Assembly: GCA_937951485.1 (NCBI GenBank)
Contig: CALEDJ010000027.1
Span: 1 to 18,158, forward strand
DNA from: an uncultured bacterium
GTDB taxonomy: Bacteria; Hydrogenedentota; Hydrogenedentia; Hydrogenedentales; CAILVY01
Direction: 5' to 3'
DNA length: 18,158 nucleotides
In this document: positions 2,380-10,640 of the stretch, piece by piece
Position numbering within the stretch: the stretch's first letter is position 1
How the letters are laid out: each line of letters opens with the position of its first letter
The notes under the pieces: generated by a model
What the model was told of the DNA's origin: nothing
Databases searched by the model: none
Seen by the model: only the letters and a program-made list of their open reading frames with translations
Program-made: the position numbers and the translations under genes

Positions 2380-3105
2380 CTATCGGCGGTGGGTCCATTG
2401 AGGAGATCGGTATTTGCTTTGGGCAAGGGCGGCTGCGGTGGCGCTTTCTTCGGGGGTGGGCGATTCCGGGGGACCGGTCGCGCCAAAGGCTTCGCGCAAC
2501 GCTTCGCGGAGCGCCGCCGGATCGAGGGGGACGGCGCGGACGAATGCGCGGTGGCTGCGCGCACCACGATAGTCCGGGCGGTCTTCAGGTTCCAGAAGAT
2601 AGCGGTCCATGCCATCGTAGTCAGGCCGATAGACCAGCGTGCCGTGGTGCAGAATCGCGCGCCGGCGGCGGCGCTGGGCGTTACCGGAAATCTTGCAGCC
2701 GTCCAGGGCGAGGTCGCTGATGCCCGCAGGTTGCGCCGGGACGCCGCGTGCGGCCAACGCCGCCGCGATGCGGCCGAGGATAATCGCGTAGGATGCGTGC
2801 AGACGACCCAGTTCCGGCCATGCGTCCAGCGGAACCGCAAGGGCGTAATTCAGGCATCCCGGCCCCTGCAGCACGCAGCCGCCGGCCGTGCATCGGCGCA
2901 GCACGGGCACGCTGTCGGCCCGGCAATGGGCGAGATGCGCCACGCGCGCGACCGCCTGTCCCGTACCGATTACGACAAACCGGATCGGGCTTTCCCAGAA
3001 ACGAAGCGTCGGACCGGAGAGACCGTCTTCCGCGGCATCCAACAACGCCTCGTCCAGGGCGAGGTTCTCCGCGGGGTCGGCGAGACTCACATCAATCAAC
3101 CGCAT
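2380..3105 (-). CDS. lplA: Lipoate-protein ligase A family protein
   Basis: This 241-residue member of the biotin/lipoate A/B transferase fold probably attaches lipoyl or octanoyl groups to the GcvH lysine encoded in the same operon. The family features are RRCTAGG at 70-76 (matching the RRxSGGG substrate loop), the following LQGPGCLNYA, and DGCKISGNAQ with K138, the lysine that contacts the acyl-AMP in LplA. The ending KYRSPQW resembles the usual C-terminus of the catalytic domain. The roughly 80-residue accessory domain of E. coli LplA is absent, so this is a short form. It could act with a separate partner, or be an octanoyltransferase or amidotransferase of the LipM/LipL kind. The cysteine beside K138 (C137) is noted but not proof. 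The start overlaps the gcvPB end by 10 bases and no strong ribosome site is seen, implying coupling. Confidence 0.82.
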   Translation of the reverse strand: MRLIDVSLADPAENLALDEALLDAAEDGLSGPTLRFWESPIRFVVIGTGQAVARVAHLAHCRADSVPVLRRCTAGGCVLQGPGCLNYALAVPLDAWPELGRLHASYAIILGRIAAALAARGVPAQPAGISDLALDGCKISGNAQRRRRRAILHHGTLVYRPDYDGMDRYLLEPEDRPDYRGARSHRAFVRAVPLDPAALREALREAFGATGPPESPTPEESATAAALAQSKYRSPQWTHRR

Positions 3106-4541
3106 GGCAGACGCGCGCAGTTCAGTTCCCGGGCGGCCTTGACTTCGTCCAGCCTGCCGACGGGCGTGGTGTGCGGGGCGGTGCGCAGCGACTCCGGGTC
3201 GGTGTCCACACGGCGCGCGATGTCAATCATGGCGTCGCAGAAGGCGTCCAGCGTTTCCTTTGTCTCCGTTTCGGTCGGCTCGATCATCAGGCATTCCTTG
3301 ACCGTCAGCGGGAAATAGACGGTAGGTGCGTAAAAACCGCAATCGAGCAACGCCTTGGCGATGTCCAGCGCGCGGACGCCCTTCTCCGCCTGCGGCGTCG
3401 CGCTGAAAAGGCACTCGTGCATGAAACGGCCGTCAAAGGCCGGCTTGTAAACGTCTTTGAGTCGCGCGTGGACGTAGTTGGCGTTGACCACGGCGCCGCG
3501 GCTGATTTCGCGCAATCCTCCGTCGCCCAGACTGCGGATGTAGGCATAGGCACGCACCGCCACGAGGAAATTACCGAAGAACGCGGCGATGCGCCCGATG
3601 GATTTCTCCGGCATCTCGAGCGCATACGCATCGCCGTGACGCGCCACGCGCGGGCCGGGCAGATAGGGCAGCAGGCGCTCGCCCACGCCGACGGGACCGG
3701 AGCCGGGGCCGCCCATGCCGTGCGGCGTGGCGAAGGTCTTGTGCAGGTTGTAGTGCATCACGTCGAAGCCCAGGTCGCCGGGGCGGCACTGGCCGATGAT
3801 GGCGTTCAGGTTTGCGCCGTCGTAATAGAGCAAGGCGCCGCGCGCGTGCGCGCATTCGGCGATGCGGACAATGTCCGGCTCGAAGAGTCCGTGGGTGTTT
3901 GGACAGGTGAGCATGATGCCGGCGACCTCATCGGTCATTGCATCCTCGAAGCGCTGCAAGTCAATCGTCCCCTGCGTATTGGACGGGACCTGCACCACGC
4001 GGAAGCCGGCCATGGCTGCGCTGGCGGGATTGGTGCCGTGGGCGGAGTCCGGCACGAGAATGACCTTCTTGTGCGTATTGCCACGGTCGCGGTGGTAAGC
4101 GGCCATCATCAACGCGCCGGTCAACTCGCCGTGCGCCCCCGCGATGGGTTGCAGCGACACCGCCCGCAGCCCTGCGATTTCCGCAAGCAAGCCCTCCAGT
4201 TCGTGGATAAGGGCGAGCGCGCCCTGACAGCGCGACAGATAAGCGCCAACGCTGGACAAATGGGGATGCAATTGTGTAAACCCCGGATGCGACACCGCCT
4301 TTTCCGTCGCCTTTGGATTGTATTTCATGGTGCAGGAACCAAGGGGATAGAAACGGTCGTCCACGCCCGCATTGCGTTGTGAGAGGTGCGTGAAATGGCG
4401 AACCACGTCCAATTCGCTCACCTCCGGCAATTCGGCGGGCTGTACGCGCCGCAGTGCTTGCGGAAACGGCGCCGCCGGCACATCCAGCGGGTCGAGACGG
4501 GTGGCGCGGCGGGCACGGCATTTCTCATAGATCAACTGCAT
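3096..4541 (-). CDS. gcvPB: Glycine dehydrogenase (decarboxylating) subunit 2, GcvPB
   Basis: This 481-residue subunit carries the pyridoxal-phosphate site of the P-protein of the glycine cleavage system. The complex decarboxylates glycine and loads aminomethyl onto the lipoyl arm of GcvH. The PLP lysine is K268 in NLHKTFATPHG, followed by the glycine-rich GMGGPGSGPVGV. Other family signatures are YPLGSCTMKYNP (65-76), PDSAHGTNPASAAM (164-177) and YDGANLNAI (240-248). Length is typical for subunit 2 of the two-subunit form. The ATG at 4541 has a strong GGAGGAA site upstream. The frame extends further upstream but that part is shadow. The start overlaps the end of gcvPA by 10 bases and the stop overlaps lplA by 10, so gcvPA-gcvPB-lplA form one translationally coupled unit. 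Confidence 0.96.
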   Translation of the reverse strand: MQLIYEKCRARRATRLDPLDVPAAPFPQALRRVQPAELPEVSELDVVRHFTHLSQRNAGVDDRFYPLGSCTMKYNPKATEKAVSHPGFTQLHPHLSSVGAYLSRCQGALALIHELEGLLAEIAGLRAVSLQPIAGAHGELTGALMMAAYHRDRGNTHKKVILVPDSAHGTNPASAAMAGFRVVQVPSNTQGTIDLQRFEDAMTDEVAGIMLTCPNTHGLFEPDIVRIAECAHARGALLYYDGANLNAIIGQCRPGDLGFDVMHYNLHKTFATPHGMGGPGSGPVGVGERLLPYLPGPRVARHGDAYALEMPEKSIGRIAAFFGNFLVAVRAYAYIRSLGDGGLREISRGAVVNANYVHARLKDVYKPAFDGRFMHECLFSATPQAEKGVRALDIAKALLDCGFYAPTVYFPLTVKECLMIEPTETETKETLDAFCDAMIDIARRVDTDPESLRTAPHTTPVGRLDEVKAARELNCARLPCG

Positions 4542-5818
4542 GATATTTCCTCCAGCGCCGCTGCGAAGGCGTCCAACTGCGCGCGCGTCCGCTTCTCCGT
4601 GACGGCGATAAGCAGGTCGCACGGGCCGCCCACGCCCAGCGCGGCAAGCGGCAACCCTGCGTAGAATCCCCTGTCCAGCATGGCGGCGACCACTTCGTCC
4701 GCATGGCGCGGCAGGCGCACCGAGAACTCGTTGAAGGTCGGACCGTCGTTGAGTATTTCCACGAAACGCAACCGGCCCTTCAGGTATTCGGCTTTGGCGT
4801 GGCAGGCCTCGGCGGTTTCACGAAGGCCTTCCTTGCCCACCAGCGACAGGTAAAGCAGCGCGCGCAGCGCGCAGAGCGCCTGATTCGAGCAAATATTCGA
4901 CATGGCCTTTTCGCGGCGGATGTGCTGCTCCCGCGTTTGCAGCGTCAATACGAAGCCCCGCCGGCCGGCGGCGTCCACCGTCATCCCCGCAATGCGGCCC
5001 GGCATTTTGCGCACGTATTCCCGGCGCGTTGCCATGATGCCCAGATACGGTCCGCCGAAACTCAGCGGCATGCCCAGACACTGCCCTTCCGCCACCGCGA
5101 TGTCCGCACCCATGGCGCCGGGCGTCTTCAGCATCCCCAGTGAAATGGGATAGAACGACAACACCAGCAATGCCTTCGCCGCGTGGCAGCGTTCGGCCAG
5201 CGCACTGTAATCGCAAACGGTGCCGAGAAAAGAGGGATTTTGGACAATAACGCATGCCGCATCCGCGGGGTCATCGCCATCGGCGAGATCAAAATCCAGA
5301 TTCGCGGTGTGGGTTTCAAGCATACGGCGATAGATGGGATTGACGGAACCATGGACCACAATGCGGCGGCGCCCCGTTACGCGGGCGGCCATGGTCGCGG
5401 CCTCAAAGACCGCCGTGCCGCCGTCATAGAGAGAGGCATTCGAGAATTCCATCTCGGTCAGGCGGCAGATGGCGGTCTGGTATTCGTAGATTGCCTGAAG
5501 CGCGCCCTGAGAACACTCCGGCTGATAGGGCGTATACGCCGTATAGAATTCGCTCCTGCCCGCCAGCGCATCCACGGCGGCCGGAATGAAATGATCATAG
5601 TAACCGCCGCCAAGGAAACATACCGGTCGCGGGTCGTTGCGTTCCGCAAAGCCCGCGACATGATCCAGCACCGCCATTTCCGACATGCCCGGCGGCATGT
5701 TCCATTGCTGCATGCGCAATTCCGTTGGTATCGCGCTGAAGAGATCCTCCGTCTTCTCCACGCCGATCACATCGAGCATCGCCCGCTCATCGGCAGCCGT
5801 CATGGGAACCCAGGACAT
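4532..5818 (-). CDS. gcvPA: Glycine dehydrogenase (decarboxylating) subunit 1, GcvPA
   Basis: This 428-residue subunit pairs with GcvPB to form the P-protein of the glycine cleavage system and resembles the N-terminal half of single-chain GcvP. Characteristic stretches are FLGGGYYDHFIPAAVD, FYTAYTPYQPECSQGALQAI and the SNASLYDGGTA loop. Near the C-terminus, NEFSVRLP begins the small domain. The length is slightly below the usual 440-450 but both ends look complete. ATG at 5818 is preceded by a strong AGGAGGAA site. A 102-base gap separates it from gcvH and holds a tandem GTCGGAC repeat patch, which may affect mRNA folding or processing between the two genes. Confidence 0.95.
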   Translation of the reverse strand: MSWVPMTAADERAMLDVIGVEKTEDLFSAIPTELRMQQWNMPPGMSEMAVLDHVAGFAERNDPRPVCFLGGGYYDHFIPAAVDALAGRSEFYTAYTPYQPECSQGALQAIYEYQTAICRLTEMEFSNASLYDGGTAVFEAATMAARVTGRRRIVVHGSVNPIYRRMLETHTANLDFDLADGDDPADAACVIVQNPSFLGTVCDYSALAERCHAAKALLVLSFYPISLGMLKTPGAMGADIAVAEGQCLGMPLSFGGPYLGIMATRREYVRKMPGRIAGMTVDAAGRRGFVLTLQTREQHIRREKAMSNICSNQALCALRALLYLSLVGKEGLRETAEACHAKAEYLKGRLRFVEILNDGPTFNEFSVRLPRHADEVVAAMLDRGFYAGLPLAALGVGGPCDLLIAVTEKRTRAQLDAFAAALEEISCS

Positions 5819-5920: not shown

Positions 5921-6307
5921 TCAATGATCCTGTTTGTTCAGAAATTCCCGGTAGGCCGCCGCATCCATCAGCGCATCCAAATCCGCGACGTTCACGTCTC
6001 CCATCTTGAAGAACCAACCGGCGCCATAGGGGTCTTTGTTGACGCGTTCCGGTTCATTTTCAAGGGCCTCGTTTACGGCCACCACGATGCCTGACACGGG
6101 CGCATAGACTTCGCTCCACGCCTTGACCGAATCCACCGCCGCCACCGGGTCGCCCTGTTGCGCTTTTGCGCCCACCTCGGGCAGGTCCACATGGGTGATT
6201 TCGCCCAATTGTTCCTGGGCGAAATCGGTGATACCCACCACATACGCCCCCTTCTGAAAACCGATCCATTCATGCGCTTCGGTGTACTTCAAATCTTCCG
6301 GATTCAT
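5921..6307 (-). CDS. gcvH: Glycine cleavage system H protein
   Basis: This 128-residue lipoyl carrier shuttles the aminomethyl group from GcvP to GcvT and is then reoxidised by lipoamide dehydrogenase. The lipoyl-acceptor lysine is K62 in AVDSVKAWSEVYAPVSG, a close match to the H-protein consensus around the modified lysine. The opening (KYTEAHEWI), GITDFAQEQLGEI and the C-terminal GWFFKM are also typical. Length is normal. The ATG at 6307 has an AAAGGAG site. It lies 31 bases after gcvT. The lplA-family gene at the operon end is the likely modifier of K62. No lipoamide dehydrogenase (lpd) gene is in the window. Confidence 0.96.
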   Translation of the reverse strand: MNPEDLKYTEAHEWIGFQKGAYVVGITDFAQEQLGEITHVDLPEVGAKAQQGDPVAAVDSVKAWSEVYAPVSGIVVAVNEALENEPERVNKDPYGAGWFFKMGDVNVADLDALMDAAAYREFLNKQDH

Positions 6308-6338: not shown

Positions 6339-7412
6339 TTATTCCTCGAATCGCATTCGGCAGGTGCCGTGTCTGTAAACAGGAGCCTCAGCAGTCGTGA
6401 CCGGAACGGCCCTTGGCCCGACCGTCAGCCTGGTGCCCGGCGCGGCAAACGCCGGTGGCACGTATGCCAGGCCGATGCCGCGTTCGACGCTCGGCCCAAA
6501 ACCGCCGCTGGTGACCACGCCGACAGGTTCCCCGTTGTGGCGGACCTCGAAACCGTGGCGCGGGGCCTGCCGGGTGTCCGATACGATGGGGGTAAGCCTT
6601 CGGGCGCAGCCGCCATCCCGCTGCGCGAGCAGCGCGGCCTTGCCGGGAAACTCCGATTCCCAAGCAATAAAGCGGTCCATCCCCGCCTCCAACGGGGTGG
6701 TGTCTTCCGTGATATCCTGCCCATAGAGGGGATAACACATCTCCATGCGCAGGGTGTCCCGCGCACCCAGGCCGCACGGCAGCACGGCGGGATGCGCAAT
6801 CAGCGCCCGCCACAGGGCGGAGGCATGTTCCGCCGGGGTGAACAGTTCATAGCCGAGTTCGCCCGTGTATCCAGCGCGCGTGGCGATGAGTTCCTTTCCC
6901 TTCCACGCGCAGCGCCGCCCTGTCCAATAGCCCAGCGAGGCTATGTCCCTCAGGCCGATATCCAGCAATACCTGTCGGGATGCGGGCCCCTGAAGGTCCA
7001 GTTTTGCCGTCGCATCCGATACATTCTCCACACCCGGACCGCCCAACAGGGCCGCAAGGCGCTTCAGGGGACCGGCGTTGGTGACCAGATACAGTTCATC
7101 CGCGGCCAGACGCAGCCCGACGCAATCGTCCACGATGCTGCCGCGGTCGTTCAGAATGGCCGTATAGCGGCAACGGCCGGGCTTCAGGCTGACCATGTCG
7201 GAAATGACCATGCGGTCAAAAGCGCGGATGGCCGCGTCTCCGCGCAGGATGAATTCGCCCATGTGCGAGCAATCGAAAAGTCCGGCCCGGCGGCGGGTGT
7301 GCTGATGCTCGGCGATGATGCCGGAGAACTGTATCGGCAAGGACCAGCCGTGGAAGTCGGTGATTTTGGCCCCGCATGCCGCATATTCGTCGAACAAAGG
7401 GGTGCGTCGCAC
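6339..7412 (-). CDS. gcvT: Aminomethyltransferase, glycine cleavage T protein
   Basis: This 357-residue enzyme transfers the methylene carbon from aminomethyl-lipoyl-GcvH to tetrahydrofolate, giving 5,10-methylene-THF and ammonia. Seen are the N-terminal TPLFDEY and FHGWSLPIQF, the folate-site acidic pair D95/D96 in RGSIVDDCVG (a conserved aspartate here is catalytic in the family), TGELGYELF, and LGARDTLRMEMCYPLYG. The length is typical. The start is GTG at 7412: AGGAG at 7420-7424 lies 7 bases before it, whereas an ATG at 7417 is only 2 bases from that site and out of frame. It is the first gene of the gcvT-gcvH-gcvPA-gcvPB-lplA operon. Its leader holds a ZTP-type riboswitch about 90 bases upstream. 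Confidence 0.96.
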   Translation of the reverse strand: MRRTPLFDEYAACGAKITDFHGWSLPIQFSGIIAEHQHTRRRAGLFDCSHMGEFILRGDAAIRAFDRMVISDMVSLKPGRCRYTAILNDRGSIVDDCVGLRLAADELYLVTNAGPLKRLAALLGGPGVENVSDATAKLDLQGPASRQVLLDIGLRDIASLGYWTGRRCAWKGKELIATRAGYTGELGYELFTPAEHASALWRALIAHPAVLPCGLGARDTLRMEMCYPLYGQDITEDTTPLEAGMDRFIAWESEFPGKAALLAQRDGGCARRLTPIVSDTRQAPRHGFEVRHNGEPVGVVTSGGFGPSVERGIGLAYVPPAFAAPGTRLTVGPRAVPVTTAEAPVYRHGTCRMRFEE

Positions 7413-7427
7413 GTCATTACTCCTGGA

Positions 7428-7479
7428 CGCCGCATGGGTTTCCGACGCGGCGCGCAGCCCGCCGGGTCATGGCGTGACC
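7428..7479 (-). promoter_or_regulatory. Probable expression platform of the gcvT riboswitch
   Basis: Between the aptamer and gcvT the minus-strand RNA can form CGCCGC (7447-7452) paired with GCGGCG (7428-7433). The 3' arm of this stem ends only 3 bases before the AGGAG ribosome site at 7420-7424. Just upstream, GGTCA-CGCCA-TGACC forms a hairpin that competes with an overlapping CATGG...CCATG pairing. No stem followed by a U-run is present, so control of translation initiation (or Rho) is more likely than an intrinsic attenuator. The fold was worked out by eye, not computed. Confidence 0.45.
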
Positions 7480-7504
7480 ATGCCCTGCTGTGTATTCGTG
7501 GTGC

Positions 7505-7584
7505 GCCCAGGCGATCGGCATCCCATTCCCGCCGCTTCCCCGTGGTTAAGGCCACGCCAACGCTCGCCAGTCACGACGGGATGC
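7505..7584 (-). promoter_or_regulatory. ZTP (pfl-motif) riboswitch aptamer in the gcv operon leader
   Basis: On the minus strand the RNA shows the ZTP-aptamer landmarks in order. P1 pairs GCATCCC (7578-7584) with GGGATGC (7518-7524). The conserved GUCGUGACUGGCGA is at 7564-7577. P2 is CGTGG (7552-7556) and CCACG (7541-7545) around loop CCTTAA. GGGGAAGC follows P2, close to the consensus GGGGAGC. The 3' conserved UCGCCUGGGC is at 7505-7514. GGCGA (7564-7568) pairs perfectly with UCGCC (7510-7514), giving the pseudoknot that defines this class. ZTP riboswitches sense ZMP/ZTP, which builds up when 10-formyl-THF is scarce, and switch on folate one-carbon and purine genes. Here the downstream operon supplies methylene-THF from glycine, which fits. 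I saw no glycine-riboswitch motif in this leader. Confidence 0.9.
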
Positions 7585-9485: not shown

Positions 9486-10640
9486 TCAACCAAAGGTTTC
9501 CCGCATCCGGTCGCAGTAGTAGCGCACATTGTCCCATTCGCCGTCGGGGGCGATGCGGTGGTCCGGGCAGGGGATGAACCCGCCCAAATCCACGAGGGGC
9601 TTGAGGCGCTCGATCTCCGCGTCCACGGCGGCGCGGTCGCGCGCAAAGACCACCTTGTTCATTCCGCCGACGCCGCGAAGTTCGCGCCCGTATTGCGCGC
9701 GCCATGGCGCGATGCTTGCGTTCCAGGTGCCCACTTCGATGGGGAACATCGTGTTCACGCCGTTGTGGAACCAGGTGGGGATGAGCGCGTCAATGCAGCC
9801 GTCGCAGTCCAGCGAACAGATCGTGATGCCGTGGCTGCGGCACAGTTCCGTGATGCGGCGGTAATGCGGCCCCACTTTTTCGTCGAAAACGGACGGAATC
9901 ACCAGCGGCCCGTTCTTGAAGCAGATGTCCTCCCAGAAATGGGCGAAATCAAACTTCGCGCCGCTCTCCAGCGCGGCCTTCGCGCACAGATAGCATAACT
10001 CGCCGACCGTGTTGATGATCTCGTCGTAGAGGTCCGGGTCTTCCGCGAAGAGATAACTTGAACCGACCACGCCCAGCGTGTCGCGGATTTTGCCGAAGAG
10101 GCTGCCGCAATGCAGCCCGTAATGGTAATCGCGATGGTCCTGTTGCAGGAATTCCAGGCCGCCTTCGTCAAAGGGGATCATTTTGTCGTTCACCCGCACC
10201 TTGGCCTTGTTGATGCGGTCCATGTTGAACTGCAATCGGGGCAGGTAGTGCTCCTCCCACTCCTTGCGGCCCTTGAGCAGATGATCAATCTCGGCGGGAA
10301 TCGAGGTCGCCCCGTCGCGCTCCAGCACGACGACCCCATCCGCGTTGCGCACCTGCCGGGAACCGTCCGGCAGGGTTTCCAGCACTTCCCGATCGAATGC
10401 CGGCGAAAGAAACGTGTTCGGATGGAATGCGGAATAGTAATTGACATCGAAGCCCAGTTTGGCGCTGACCACCGCGTCCACGGGATTGCCGTCGCCCCAT
10501 TCCTCCGCCTCTTCCTTGGTGAGATGCCCTTCTTCCGCCCACTTGTCCAGCGTATCTTTCCAGAAGCCGAAATGCACAATCGGCAGCCGATCGCAGGACT
10601 CGTAATTCAATACAGCCAAAACACGCTGGCGGTTATTCAT
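9486..10640 (-). CDS. Uroporphyrinogen decarboxylase (UROD) superfamily protein, not HemE
   Basis: This 384-residue protein has the UROD/methyltransferase-like TIM-barrel family pattern: the opening MNNRQRVLAVLNYESCDRLP, a central DPDLYDEIINTVGELC, and the C-terminal GGFIPCPDHRIAPDGEWDNVRYY that closes many family members. Its sequence style is that of the divergent UROD-like proteins common in PVC-like bacteria. These are related to corrinoid-dependent methyltransferases rather than to the haem enzyme. A cysteine-rich stretch CSLDCDGC (275-282), with E302 following, could be a metal site; this is inference. The substrate is unknown. The ATG at 10640 has a GGAAGGAA site. It lies 69 bases after rhaM on the same strand. 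A TAGAAT box at 10661-10666 may be a local promoter, so a sugar-linked role is possible but unproven. Confidence 0.8.
   Translation of the reverse strand: MNNRQRVLAVLNYESCDRLPIVHFGFWKDTLDKWAEEGHLTKEEAEEWGDGNPVDAVVSAKLGFDVNYYSAFHPNTFLSPAFDREVLETLPDGSRQVRNADGVVVLERDGATSIPAEIDHLLKGRKEWEEHYLPRLQFNMDRINKAKVRVNDKMIPFDEGGLEFLQQDHRDYHYGLHCGSLFGKIRDTLGVVGSSYLFAEDPDLYDEIINTVGELCYLCAKAALESGAKFDFAHFWEDICFKNGPLVIPSVFDEKVGPHYRRITELCRSHGITICSLDCDGCIDALIPTWFHNGVNTMFPIEVGTWNASIAPWRAQYGRELRGVGGMNKVVFARDRAAVDAEIERLKPLVDLGGFIPCPDHRIAPDGEWDNVRYYCDRMRETFG

Follow-up and report, generated by a model that had tools for sequence, protein, structure and literature searches.

A ZMP/ZTP riboswitch precedes the glycine cleavage operon across Candidatus Hydrogenedentota and probably switches it on at translation initiation

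In better-known bacteria the glycine cleavage genes are often controlled by a glycine riboswitch. Glycine cleavage yields methylene-THF, which is turned into 10-formyl-THF by FolD, while formate-THF ligase (fhs) is the other common source of 10-formyl-THF. Shortage of 10-formyl-THF is signalled by ZTP (PMC9481103), and the targets of the ZMP/ZTP (pfl) riboswitches given in the discovery paper were purH, fhs, pfl, glyA and folD, with metH among the less frequent ones (PMC2864571). In the pfl ZTP switch of Clostridium beijerinckii, an invader strand binds P3 by pairing on its 3' side and continues through the pseudoknot (PMC10085676).

The window analysed here, a stretch of 18,158 nucleotides from an uncultured bacterium of the Hydrogenedentota, was scanned against all Rfam families, and the ZMP/ZTP family (RF01750) was the sole match, no other family reaching its threshold in the window. 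A first-pass annotation of the sequence had proposed a ZTP riboswitch in the minus-strand leader of gcvT, and the covariance-model search that it named as a check returned a strong match over the full length of the model (7498-7584, minus strand, aligned to model positions 1-86 of 86; the score is 55.4 bits, the gathering score 39 and E 7.8e-7). Of the 7505-7584 interval first proposed, the 5' end at 7584 stood, and the 3' end had to be extended slightly, to 7498. The parts of the leader are:

7498-7584, minus strand: ZMP/ZTP (pfl) riboswitch aptamer, full length (Rfam RF01750)
7574-7580, minus strand: 5' strand of P1, CCCGUCG, with its partner CGGCGGG at 7528-7534 and compensatory changes in 54 relatives
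7564-7568, minus strand: 5' strand of the pseudoknot, GGCGA, with its partner UCGCC at 7510-7514
7505-7519, minus strand: P3 domain GCCGAUCGCCUGGGC, holding the 3' strand of the pseudoknot and the proposed anti-Shine-Dalgarno strand CCUGGGC (7505-7511)
7420-7428, minus strand: Shine-Dalgarno region GUCCAGGAG, from sequence reading and a duplex check

Alignment to the Rfam consensus showed that the strongly conserved core letters of both conserved domains are intact (GACUGGCG, GGGGAAGC and GCCGAUCGCCUGGGC). The conserved elements reported earlier are present, and the earlier description of the 5-bp P2 (CGUGG/CCACG) and of the pseudoknot (GGCGA/UCGCC) is correct. The 7-bp P1 (CCCGUCG/CGGCGGG) is real as well, but to call it perfect was slightly generous, since it includes one U-G wobble. 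When the Rfam structure was projected on 54 gcvT leaders, 48-54 of them kept the inner P1 pairs, and compensatory C-G/U-A/G-C exchanges were seen at several P1 pairs. The P2 core did not vary, and the P3 core hardly at all. The first four pairs of the pseudoknot are G-C in 54/54 leaders and the fifth is A-U in 49/54; the pseudoknot is thus conserved, yet not covarying, and its loss in homologous leaders, named beforehand as an observation that would speak against a riboswitch, was not seen. The gcvT leader RNA is confirmed as a genuine ZTP riboswitch, and membership of this class makes ZMP/ZTP the expected ligand of the aptamer at 7498-7584.

On the same strand, about 85 nt separate the 3' end of the aptamer from the downstream gcvT gene with its GTG start, and the genes that follow are:

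6339-7412, minus strand: gcvT, GTG start (NF001567, 332.7 bits, cut-off 300; TIGR00528, 295.2 bits, cut-off 235.85)
5921-6307, minus strand: gcvH (TIGR00527, 153.1 bits, cut-off 115.85)
4532-5818, minus strand: gcvPA (NF001696, 567 bits, cut-off 364)
3096-4541, minus strand: gcvPB (NF003346, 686.9 bits, cut-off 441)
2380-3105, minus strand: lipoate-protein-ligase-like gene, last in the operon (TIGR00545, 103.6 bits, under the cut-off of 280)

For gcvPB the open reading frame begins at 4622 and the family match at residue 28, so translation probably starts from the ATG at 4541. The first-pass annotation had read this operon as gcvT-gcvH-gcvPA-gcvPB-lplA; the first four genes scored above the curated NCBIfam cut-offs, and the last is called lplA-like here because its matches to lipoate-protein ligase models were all below cut-off. 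A homologue of it follows gcvPB in many relatives. Elsewhere in the window, a 384-aa open reading frame (9486-10640, minus strand) had no NCBIfam match at 1e-3.

The aptamer is the only ZTP aptamer of its genome, in which folD and fhs are both present and no match was found to the AICAR transformylase-like gene that is linked to ZTP aptamers in relatives. A glycine riboswitch at the gcvT locus was rejected, as the covariance model RF00504 had no detectable match in the window or in the whole genome. None was over the cut-off in any of the 68 genomes of the class either; the lone sub-threshold match in the class (L108, G028:C57:123039-123156) scored 30.8 bits against a cut-off of 32.

The survey of related genomes covered 68 assemblies of Candidatus Hydrogenedentota, the class search and the phylum search returning the identical set. 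ZTP aptamers were found in 59 of them (76 aptamers, 42-69 bits with RF01750), including 37 of the 38 good-quality genomes. Targets were assigned from up to 6 kb of sequence behind every aptamer: gcvT comes directly after 54 of them, an AICAR transformylase-like gene after 20, and two lie at contig ends, so that every aptamer with sequence behind it belongs to one of these two targets. The 54 ZTP-gcvT loci come from 54 genomes and 35 genera. In general gcvH, gcvPA and gcvPB come next, and on contigs of sufficient length an lplA-like gene often comes after them. Among the 14 genomes without the pair, nine had no gcvT match at the threshold used, one had a gcvT cut by a contig end, and four (G020, G042, G057 and G060, the only such cases among the assessable gcvT genes) had a gcvT with no detected aptamer in front. 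The presence of fhs in three of these four, against 14 of the 54, involves too few genomes to claim an association (p 0.07). An assembly of Candidatus Hydrogenedentota also contained a GcvT relative with 61% identity. The leader at this locus agrees with that of G011, a genome from the same order as the window's organism, which puts the window in this phylum; the locus serves as a taxonomic label only, not as independent evidence. The survey, of the kind that the first-pass annotation had called for, shows ZTP riboswitches before gcvT in related genomes, and the pairing is a phylum-wide rule in Hydrogenedentota, occurring at the same place in nearly all sequenced relatives.

The second target (L103, L095, L037, L067, L073, L057 and 14 further loci) encodes a stand-alone protein of about 372 aa, with no IMP cyclohydrolase part in the open reading frames seen, whose AICAR transformylase-like identity is given by a sequence signature and not by a family scan. 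In 19 of the 20 cases the proteins are close relatives of one another.

In a sample of 318 genomes from outside the phylum, 16 ZTP aptamers were found in 15 genomes. None of the 16 is followed by gcvT. The genes behind them are glyA in seven cases (once as the second gene), pfl in two and fdhA in two, with one case each of fhs, purH, a formate/nitrite-type transporter, a benE-type transporter and an ambiguous gene. The link between ZTP and gcvT is thus a feature of Hydrogenedentota in the material searched, the outside sample being far too small to call it exclusive. Several of the outside loci are of interest in their own right. A BenE-type benzoate transporter (L115:2703-4058, minus strand; TIGR00843, 411 bits), an unexpected target, stands directly behind a ZTP aptamer. 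At L123:528-3137 (plus strand) the aptamer is followed by a very long GC-rich open reading frame whose C-terminal part resembles tryptophanyl-tRNA synthetase, which leaves the first gene ambiguous. Formate handling appears as a ZTP target at L113:3101-3931 (minus strand), L117:711-3419 (plus strand) and L122:655-3345 (plus strand), where aptamers precede a formate/nitrite-type transporter or formate dehydrogenase alpha.

With regard to the expression platform, the sequence AGGAG lies seven bases upstream of the gcvT GTG start, and GUCCAGG (7422-7428) is complementary to the aptamer strand CCUGGGC (7505-7511) through six Watson-Crick pairs and one G-U pair. Across the lineage, 16/54 gcvT genes have AGGCG, the complement of aptamer CGCCU, in their ribosome-site window, compared with 5/119 gcvH, gcvPA and lplA-like genes (Fisher p 7.7e-6). 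The genomes compared are related and so not independent, but the motif is present in 12/35 genera. It was found in 1/20 of the AICAR transformylase-like genes. Covariation links the two bases 3' of AGGCG to the two that precede CGCCU (UU/AA, AU/AU and GU/AC; permutation p about 0.002). One relative, G067, carries a perfect CCUGGGC/GCCCAGG pairing, and other loci pair via other parts of the same aptamer strand. Permutation of the longest helix over all loci gave a small effect (5.07 versus 4.86, reached by 2/200 shuffles; about 0.017 by genus).

The CCAGG-type pairing of the window itself was not enriched (3/54 gcvT leaders). The window leader was not more stable than shuffled sequence (z 0.80), and ViennaRNA accessibility of the Shine-Dalgarno region did not differ overall between the free and the aptamer-excluded state in the 54 leaders (p 0.62), in a model that omits the pseudoknot; partition-function folding was accordingly dropped as proof of Shine-Dalgarno release. 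Because thermodynamic folding gave the switch no general support, the platform is something that we infer. For the lineage, the Shine-Dalgarno step is partly supported, with odds slightly better than even; at the window locus, where the pairing type is not enriched and no general accessibility change was seen, it is a weaker proposal.

Our main reading is that a canonical ZMP/ZTP riboswitch turns the glycine cleavage operon on, probably at translation initiation (probability about 0.85). When 10-formyl-THF runs short, AICAR transformylase would stall and ZMP/ZTP would rise; the ligand would stabilise the pseudoknot between P1-P2 and P3 and switch on gcvT-gcvH-gcvPA-gcvPB-lplA-like, so that 5,10-methylene-THF made from glycine could be converted to 10-formyl-THF via FolD. 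Without ligand, CGCCU or CCUGGGC in the P3/pseudoknot strand of the aptamer probably pairs with the Shine-Dalgarno region; once bound, the aptamer would keep that strand and free the ribosome site. The on direction is taken from the riboswitch class, and it is a sensible one since ZTP marks a shortage of 10-formyl-THF, glycine cleavage and FolD supply this compound, and fhs was found in only 20/68 genomes of the class. The metabolic logic proposed at the outset also fits the findings that the sole further target is an AICAR transformylase-like gene and that most genomes gave no fhs match. Whether glycine cleavage was put under folate-stress control in place of glycine control as an ancestral, fixed arrangement of the phylum, with the Shine-Dalgarno region competing with the pseudoknot, is evenly balanced in our judgement.

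The most serious alternative, although an improbable one, is that the riboswitch acts on transcription, by Rho-dependent or weak intrinsic termination, and not on ribosome access. Terminators overlap many known pfl RNAs (PMC2864571; PMC10085676), and the terminator checks made here cover the intrinsic type, Rho sites being invisible to them. The window leader, however, has no intrinsic terminator, and T-runs of at least five, which this alternative could use, occur in only 7/54 leaders, so that control by termination looks uncommon and translation is pointed to. Some leaders are as short as 31-47 nt, which leaves little room, and complementarity to the Shine-Dalgarno region is enriched. It is considerably less probable that high ZTP turns the operon off. 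Tandem ZTP switches of the off type are predicted before moeA (PMC9481103), but glycine cleavage makes the very one-carbon unit that is scarce at high ZTP, and the one further target within the phylum is AICAR transformylase-like, of the enzyme type that consumes ZMP. In addition, the folded aptamer occupies the strand to which the ribosome site is complementary.

More doubtful still is an aptamer variant that shares the architecture but binds another ligand, such as another folate or purine intermediate. Changed targets sometimes accompany changed ligands in other riboswitch classes; here, however, the conserved core letters are unaltered in the window, scores are 42-69 bits throughout the phylum, and AICAR transformylase-like genes of the same phylum carry the same aptamer. 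A match that arose by chance or has decayed, and that regulates nothing, would fit the unremarkable folding energy of the leader. It is very unlikely given the bit score, the covariation and a position before gcvT kept in 54 genomes and 35 genera.

The canonical on switch before gcvT would couple glycine breakdown directly to the alarmone ZTP throughout a phylum that is mostly uncultured. It suggests that the glycine cleavage system can serve to supply one-carbon units and not to dispose of glycine. The 54 leaders, from 35 genera, also form a comparative data set for studying possible control of ribosome access by ZTP aptamers. The RNA class, the ligand and the general logic are known, and the unusual element is the lineage-fixed gcvT target, which may possibly have been listed before.

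In comparison with the described RF01750 riboswitches, the full-length aptamer, P1, P2, P3, the pseudoknot, the core letters and the one-carbon/purine setting are shared, whereas the target here is the glycine cleavage operon. The glycine riboswitch (gcvT motif, RF00504) has the same target genes but is an unrelated RNA, with no match over cut-off in this genome or class. The ZTP/glycine tandem riboswitches of Bacillus and Oceanobacillus likewise link ZTP and glycine signals (PMC9481103), although they combine both aptamers before a serine-synthesis gene, in contrast to the single ZTP aptamer before gcvT. In C. beijerinckii the invader forms the terminator, while in many of the relatives studied here the complementary strand is the Shine-Dalgarno region; if true, this competition would be the translational counterpart of the known terminator invasion.
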